This document shows, in pieces, positions 18,201 through 60,566 of a DNA stretch of 64,000 bases (position 1 is the first letter of the stretch; each line of letters starts with the position of its first letter). The notes beneath the pieces were generated by a model. That model saw nothing but the letters and a program-made list of their open reading frames with translations, did not search any database and was not told the DNA's origin. The stretch is from Candidatus Methanosuratincola subterraneus (lineage in GTDB: Archaea > Thermoproteota > Methanomethylicia > Methanomethylicales > Methanomethylicaceae). The translations under genes and the position numbers were made by a program. The stretch is taken from positions 307,188-371,187 of the forward strand of contig RXGA01000002.1 of the NCBI GenBank assembly GCA_004028775.1, in the 5' to 3' direction.

Positions 18201-19230
18201 ATGGCAGTGACTGTGGTCGTTGGCGGCTTCTACGGAGACGAGGGGAAAGGGTCACCGCTGCGGGGATCCCCCCAGAGGTAAGATAGCCGCCTATATGGGC
18301 TTCAAGGACAACTACGCCCTGGCAGTCAGGACTGGGTCGATAAACGCAGGGCACACGATAGTCGAGGGCGGGAAGGAGGTCAAGCTGAGGATAATCCCGT
18401 GCGCCTACGTCAACAGGAGGACCAGGCTCCTCATAGCAGCCGGGGCGCTGTACAGCATCGAGACGCTGAAGAAGGAGATCGCCATCACCGGGGCCGAGGG
18501 GAGGCTCGGGGTGGACCGGAACAGCGGCGTGATACTCCCCGAGCACATCGAGAGGGAGCGGAAGGACGAGTTCCTGATGAAGAAGGTAGGCTCGACCGGG
18601 TCCGGCGTCGGGGCAGCGATGGTCGACAGGGTGCTCCGGACGATGAGGCTCGCCCGCGACTTCGACGAGCTCAAGCCATACCTCACTGACGTGGAGAGGG
18701 AGGTCCACGACTGCGCAAAGTCAGGCGGCAGGGTCCTCCTGGAGGGCACGCAGGGGCTCTACCTCTCGCTGTTCCACGGGGATCCGCCGTACGTCACAAG
18801 CAGGGACGTCTCGGCCTCGGCAGTCTGCAGCGAGGTCGGCGTGGGCCCTAAGGACGTTGACGATGTCGTGGTAGTCTTCAAGTCCTACGTGACCAGGGTA
18901 GGCGGCGGCCCGCTCGAGGGGGAGATCCCTGAGGACGAGGCTGCGAGGAGGGGCTGGCTGGAGGTCGCCACTGTGACCGGAAGGAAGAGGAGGGCGGCCC
19001 CGTTTAACTATGCGCTCGCGGAGAGGTCGCTGAGGATAAACGGGGGGACGCAGATAGCGCTCACGAAGCTGGACGCGATTTTCCCTGAGTGCAGGGGGGC
19101 GCGGAGCTATGAGGGCCTGCCTGACAGGGCGAAATCATTCGTCAAGGAGATTGAGCAGAACCTGGGCGTCCCGGTCACGATCATAGGGACCGGGCCAGGA
19201 ACCGAGGACATAGTCGACAGGCGCCTGTGA
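18201..19230 (+). CDS. purA: Adenylosuccinate synthetase, interrupted by a 28-nt BHB intron
   Basis: PurA condenses IMP with aspartate using GTP, the first step towards AMP. The gene is in two frames: 18201-18251 encodes MAVTVVVGGFYGDEGKG, then 28 extra bases shift the frame and reach a stop at 18279. The rest continues as KIAAYMGFKDNYALAVRTGS to the normal C-terminus. Joining 18201-18247 to 18276-19230 gives 333 residues, the usual archaeal length, and restores the P-loop GDEGKGK. Further family motifs are NAGHTIV, GSTGSGVGAA and LEGTQGLYLSLFHG. No other damage is seen, so the gene looks functional after splicing. Start ATG 18201 follows ggtgg. Confidence 0.9.
18248..18275 (+). other. Candidate archaeal protein-coding (BHB) intron in purA
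   Basis: The exon GGGG at 18242-18245 pairs with intron CCCC at 18270-18273 as the 4-bp core. The 5' bulge is AA/A (18246-18248) and the 3' bulge is AG/A (18274-18276), each cut after its second base. The intron folds as 18249-18253 with 18265-18269 plus CC/GG and a 5-nt loop. Excision gives GGG-AAA-GGT-AAG, restoring frame and P-loop. The exon-side helix is weak: only a distant 6-bp GGCGGC/GCCGCC match at 18222-18227 and 18286-18291. The same geometry fits all three tRNA introns in this window. Confidence 0.75.
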
Positions 19231-60472: not shown

Positions 60473-60566
60473 CGGGTCCGGAGGGATTTGAACCCTCGAC
60501 CATCGGCTCTCCCCACGGTTTCCGTTCCGGAGGCCGACACCCTGATCCGGACTAGGCCACGGACCC
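60473..60566 (-). tRNA. tRNA-Arg (anticodon CCG) with one intron
   Basis: Acceptor GGGTCCG/CGGACCC, D stem GCCT/GGGT, anticodon arm TCGGC-CTCCGGA-GCCGA (after splicing), T arm GAGGG-TTCAAAT-CCCTC, discriminator G. The anticodon CCG reads CGG. Exons run from 60566 to 60527 and 60508 to 60473. CCA is not encoded (the next bases are CCT). Mature length is 76 nt. It is the second arginine tRNA in this window, on the minus strand, upstream of the small zinc-ribbon gene. Confidence 0.92.
60509..60526 (-). other. 18-nt tRNA intron at position 37/38
   Basis: Perfect BHB: exon CTCC (32-35) pairs with intron GGGG; the 5' bulge is GG/A; the intron hairpin is ACGG-AAA-CCGT; the 3' bulge is AG/A. Cutting after the second base of each bulge restores the 7-nt loop CTCCGGA. 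Confidence 0.9.

Follow-up and report, generated by a model that had tools for sequence, protein, structure and literature searches.

Here we describe a 28-nt interruption of purA in the methane-producing archaeon Candidatus Methanosuratincola subterraneus which, at a probability of roughly 94%, we read as a predicted bulge-helix-bulge (BHB) pre-mRNA intron excised by the tRNA-splicing endonuclease. It lies at 18248-18275 on the forward strand of the window, the 64,000-nt stretch of DNA that was analysed. All features of the gene given below are on the same strand.

The purA gene starts with ATG at 18201. Exon 1 (18201-18247, 47 nt) is read in frame as MAVTVVVGGFYGDEG, 15 codons, followed by two bases of the next codon, which encodes the P-loop lysine. 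Inside that codon (...GAC GAG GGG AA / A) the frame is broken for 28 nt, and it is regained at 18276 as A GGT AAG ATA GCC. Removal of the 28 nt joins exon 1 to exon 2 (18276-19230 including the stop codon, 955 nt), giving GDEGKGKIAAY and 333 residues, with GGGGAAAGGTAAG as the predicted mRNA junction. Against NF003295, the archaeal adenylosuccinate synthetase model, exon 2 by itself scores 450 bits (cut-off 368 bits), with the match beginning at model position 17, which means that the exon 1 portion is what is missing. An earlier note, made from the letters of this DNA, had proposed the same borders, a core helix at 18242-18245/18270-18273 and a restored P-loop in a 333-residue enzyme, and on rereading of the sequence each of these is correct. 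It had also held that a second intact purA would count against an intron; when the whole genome (1.51 Mb, 96.7% complete) was searched for members of the purA family, no copy besides the locus at 18201-19230 was found.

In the predicted fold, the core helix is made of GGGG at 18242-18245, within exon 1, and CCCC at 18270-18273, within the intron. It is flanked by a 5' bulge AAA (18246-18248) and a 3' bulge AGA (18274-18276), with the predicted cuts after the second base of each, that is, after 18247 and after 18275, and it leads into an intron hairpin of 7 pairs with one interruption (18249-18269). By itself the motif is no rarer than chance, and we reject it as stand-alone evidence: a count of 4-bp cores that have two 3-nt bulges and 5 or more inner pairs gives 54 and 48 for the two strands of the window, compared with 41-56 for each of six one-strand shuffles. 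A 41-nt stretch folds as first described, with ordinary stability (z -0.59), and a 68-nt stretch has a different lowest-energy fold, whose stability is also ordinary relative to shuffles (z 0.26). It is the comparison with relatives that places the purA insert above chance. The core and the bulges of the original reading stand, but the motif has to be refined to a relaxed one, given that no outer helix adjoins the core and the neighbouring exon bases are unpaired in 22 of the 22 rows tested. The insert would accordingly lack the helices on both sides that make up a strict BHB motif. A more distant outer helix between GGCGGCU in exon 1 and AGCCGCC in exon 2 was considered (88.6% of cells pair), yet it shows no covariation and is not supported. 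Self-splicing introns of group I or II, which are large catalytic RNAs, are excluded by the size of the inserts, and Rfam gave no match in the window except for the tRNA. A frame-continuity scan of the window for more mRNA introns was uninformative, given that it misses first exons as short as the one in purA.

The search of purA in related genomes for the same insertion, which the earlier note had suggested as a check, was carried out and found the P-loop Lys codon interrupted by 15-30 nt in at least 34 genomes from seven families and four classes of the phylum. The insert is thus real and, beyond this genome, patchily spread over four classes. NCBI places the genus Methanosuratincola in the class Methanosuratincolia of the phylum Thermoproteota. 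Among 40 genomes searched of this class, 31 match exon 2, with the P-loop interrupted in 21 and the site uninterrupted in 10; interrupted genes make up 16/17 in family f1 and 5/5 in family f6. The purA of M. petrocarbonis V4 carries an insert identical to the 28 nt described here. Protein searches blind to structure, run on 398 genomes of the phylum and 12 of a second class (matches in 319 and 11, respectively), added G118, G080, G059, G066 and G106 among the matches listed. On the same 398 genomes, a covariance model built from ten intron sequences added G391, G209 and G319 among the matches listed. A second model, built from 27, brought up five further f58 genomes among the matches listed for 250 genomes from the class that includes G391, and nothing beyond G209 and G319 in 81 genomes from the class of G209. 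Hence, 26 of the 34 genomes were reached by structure-blind protein searches and 8 by a structure model. The second model separates the two kinds of gene in the 398 genomes: 29 intron-bearing genomes score at least 62.7 bits, and the next match listed scores 48.8 bits (a 54-nt span from an uninterrupted gene). Two genomes with 84-nt model spans were dropped, G312 because its site reads uninterrupted and G316 on an open protein match over 2-332 and a 54-nt span. G454 has an intron-bearing purA on contig C48 (L117) as well as a match with an uninterrupted span on C137, which could reflect two strains, contamination or two copies.

The geometry is constant across these genomes. Every one of the 34 inserts has four of four core pairs (G-U allowed) and two 3-nt bulges, and cutting behind base 2 of both bulges restores GDEGKGK in every one. 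A 4-bp helix between 3-nt bulges, with borders after the second bulge base, is the BHB motif in its broad sense, and it is predicted in 34 of 34. The 5' bulge reads AAA throughout (34/34), the register of borders that could slide being fixed by this bulge, and the 3' bulge is AGA in 24, AAA in 9 and ATA in 1. The insert length is not a multiple of three in 25 of the 34, and each of the remaining nine has a stop codon in frame. The border takes one of two positions within the Lys codon: it follows base 2 in 24 rows (families f1, f58 and f45) and base 1 in 10 (f6, f37, f25 and f14).

Although the hairpins vary in sequence, they pair. In an alignment of ten sequences, all cells pair, and 11 cells are changed on both sides compared with 3.6 in shuffles, a value reached in 0 of 500. 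A fifteen-sequence alignment from f1 has 89.3% of cells paired compared with 76.9% in shuffles, and both sides have changed in 22 of its cells compared with 8.9 (again 0/500). Across 31 distinct introns, the first three pairs of the inner helix are formed in 93/93 cases, where permutation gives a mean of 65.9; for 14 chosen representatives the count is 42/42, compared with 28.0 on permutation. Two weaker measures are ordinary: the observed count of additional pair types is reached in 76/500 and 92/500 shuffles for the two alignments, and that of pairs changed on both sides in 129/500 for the ten-sequence set. The shuffles do not remove shared ancestry, but slid versions, which keep it, score far below the observed values. 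Despite the two ordinary measures, the hairpin appears to be kept by compensatory change. The bulge-helix-bulge and its borders, as first read from a single genome, have thus gained support from the shared geometry, the shared codon and the compensatory changes in relatives, and from the splicing enzymes that the genome encodes.

The genome has two genes of the splicing-endonuclease family, one of catalytic type and one of non-catalytic type. Subunit 1 is similar to the catalytic EndA subunit of Aeropyrum (3p1z_B, E 1.1e-48) and keeps DHAPF and RKKF. Subunit 2 has a proline at the position of a histidine in the aligned 1a79 chain, which we take to be catalytic there, as expected of a putative structural subunit. 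In subunit 1, K-P-K aligns with K44-P45-R46, residues of the Crenarchaea-specific loop discussed in the available part of PMC12397907, so that the catalytic subunit would carry the loop tied to relaxed substrates, in keeping with a purA core that has no helix on its exon side. RtcB is present as a single gene copy, and both an endonuclease and a ligase are thus encoded. We infer that the two subunits, assumed to work as a joint enzyme, form an (alpha-beta)2 endonuclease that accepts the relaxed purA motif.

In the proposed mechanism, the tRNA-splicing endonuclease would cut the purA pre-mRNA once in each bulge, behind base 2, and ligation of the exons would likely fall to RtcB, so that a working PurA would be encoded by the joined mRNA only; cleavage and ligation of the purA mRNA would then both take place in the cell. 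The exon itself may explain why the intron persists: its conserved Glu-Gly-Lys codons would supply a core strand and the 5' bulge, and for this reason the splice site could hardly decay while the enzyme is needed.

A different outcome of the same cut is conceivable, namely that the BHB is cleaved mainly as a regulatory brake on the purA mRNA, with splicing minor or conditional. Precedents exist, given that the accessible portion of PMC2738675 proposes a negative regulatory role for the cbf5 intron and that of PMC7714728 describes a Haloferax endonuclease that processes BHB sites in the 5' UTR of HVO_1309. However, we consider a brake very unlikely, as excision at the borders brings back the exact frame for all 34 inserts and an mRNA that is cut but left unjoined yields no enzyme from the only copy found.

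The chances are slimmer still that ribosomes hop over the insert on unspliced mRNA. Such translational bypassing, exemplified by T4 gene 60, uses matched take-off and landing codons. The gap in purA does contain a hairpin, and codons match in 18 of the 34 rows (exactly for the Lys codon in 5, in the first two bases of the Gly codon in 15), but neither match is present in the other 16. Furthermore, bypassing needs no pair of 3-nt bulges, yet these are kept in all 34 genomes, and the borders obey the endonuclease rule.

That leaves an assembly error or a decaying pseudogene, which the broken frame and the missing first exons in databases might suggest but which is hardly credible given 34 separate genomes (including G036, G032 and G013 with 1, 2 and 7 contigs), purifying selection on exon 2 (dN/dS 0.03-0.18 in 11 pairs) of the sole purA found in the genome, and a geometry that stays constant while insert sequence and length vary.

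Of the 41 best database proteins, 36 lack the P-loop motif, and of the 120 best, 47 do (2,952 matches in all); those without it mostly start after the motif or out of frame, although some perhaps come from a contig end. Hence, gene callers drop the first exon of purA, with part of the cases perhaps explained by contig ends. One protein with an intact P-loop, P0003, is 88.7% identical to an intron-bearing relative and comes from a contig of 1,474 bases; it was considered as a public copy of the spliced form and set aside, as intron loss and cDNA are indistinguishable.

To follow the history of the intron, trees were built from exon 2 only. The tree of 48 rows, which includes 24 of the 26 intron-bearing genes known at that stage, has at least 5 changes of the intron trait, 4 of them forced by well-supported branches, and the tree of 72 rows, with 31 of 34 intron rows, has at least 8, of which 7 are forced. 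The trees leave off L037, L041 and L105 (too short), L162 (no frame) and many other loci whose site is uninterrupted. The intron-free G009 is nested within f1, which makes at least one clean loss likely, and f14 and f58 are mixed. These trees do not separate one ancient intron with many losses from repeated gain or from transfer of purA. A bolder scenario, possible but on balance doubtful, is that the P-loop codon of purA is a recurrent target that gained BHB introns several times independently. The exon run GGG-AAA would be a ready-made half of the endonuclease duplex, and the splicing machinery would itself seed introns in active-site codons of this kind, through reverse splicing or through repair and recombination of cut mRNA; cbf5 would then have the same duplex with its strands swapped.

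According to the available part of PMC7714728 (2020), cbf5 is the only further archaeal BHB intron reported to date besides that paper's own 5'-UTR case, and we found no report of a purA intron in the open-licence literature searched. purA is thus likely to be the second host gene for BHB pre-mRNA introns and the second archaeal protein gene with such an intron in its coding sequence. If true, a second and widespread case turns a curiosity into a class, and the gain and loss of archaeal mRNA introns could then be traced on a tree. It would also show gene callers silently omitting the P-loop of a purine-synthesis enzyme. The splicing of purA is testable at once, given that a cultured methanogen of the genus, strain LWZ-6, is described in the accessible text of PMC12244365.

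The precedent of cbf5, on which the earlier note had drawn, is borne out, and it is the sole established coding-sequence case in the literature searched. In the portion of PMC2738675 that is available, pre-mRNA introns of 16-44 nt are described for cbf5 in Desulfurococcales and Sulfolobales, located just after base 1 of the catalytic Asp codon, with a BHB-like motif cut between the second and third bulge residues. For an archaeal virus, the same portion also notes insertions of 12 bp as putative, with no splicing demonstrated there. Among the 40 genomes searched in the class studied here, cbf5 is uninterrupted in the present genome and has an insert in 16 (L185-L200) from families f3, f4, f6, f7, f8 and f9. 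Fifteen of the 16 allow a cut that restores the product and has a complete 4-bp core, with inserts of 19-23 nt between base 1 and base 2 of the catalytic Asp codon; L194 has no such cut with a full core and 3 of 4 pairs by eye. All five f6 genomes with a purA intron also have a cbf5 insert, L194 among them. The inserts occupy the known crenarchaeal site described in PMC2738675, and they extend the cbf5 intron from the two orders named there to six families of this class.

The window also contains a tRNA-Arg(CCG) gene on the reverse strand (60473-60566), with an 18-nt intron at 60509-60526 that was read by eye: a CUCC/GGGG core, bulges GGA and AGA, a 4-bp hairpin and a 3-nt loop. The purA intron resembles such archaeal 37/38-type tRNA introns in its 4-bp core, two 3-nt bulges and compact hairpin; in the tRNA, however, the anticodon stem serves as outer helix, and purA has no helix there. 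As with HVO_1309 in Haloferax, an mRNA is the predicted substrate of the splicing endonuclease, but the BHB sites described in the accessible part of PMC7714728 lie in a 5' UTR and that of purA lies inside the reading frame. The closest likeness is to the cbf5 introns, for which splicing has been demonstrated, whereas that of purA is predicted. Both are short, need no open reading frame, have a relaxed BHB-like motif with the same cut rule, interrupt an active-site codon and are patchily present with losses. Their duplexes are nearly alike, but the strands of the core are swapped between them: in purA the exon supplies GGGG-AAA or AGGG-AAA and the intron CCCC or CCCU followed by AGA, and in cbf5 the exon supplies CCCU-AGA and the intron GGGG with a bulge such as AAA. 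Given the different host gene, and the Lys codon of a P-loop instead of a catalytic Asp codon, the predicted intron of purA is of the same kind as that of cbf5 but a different intron.
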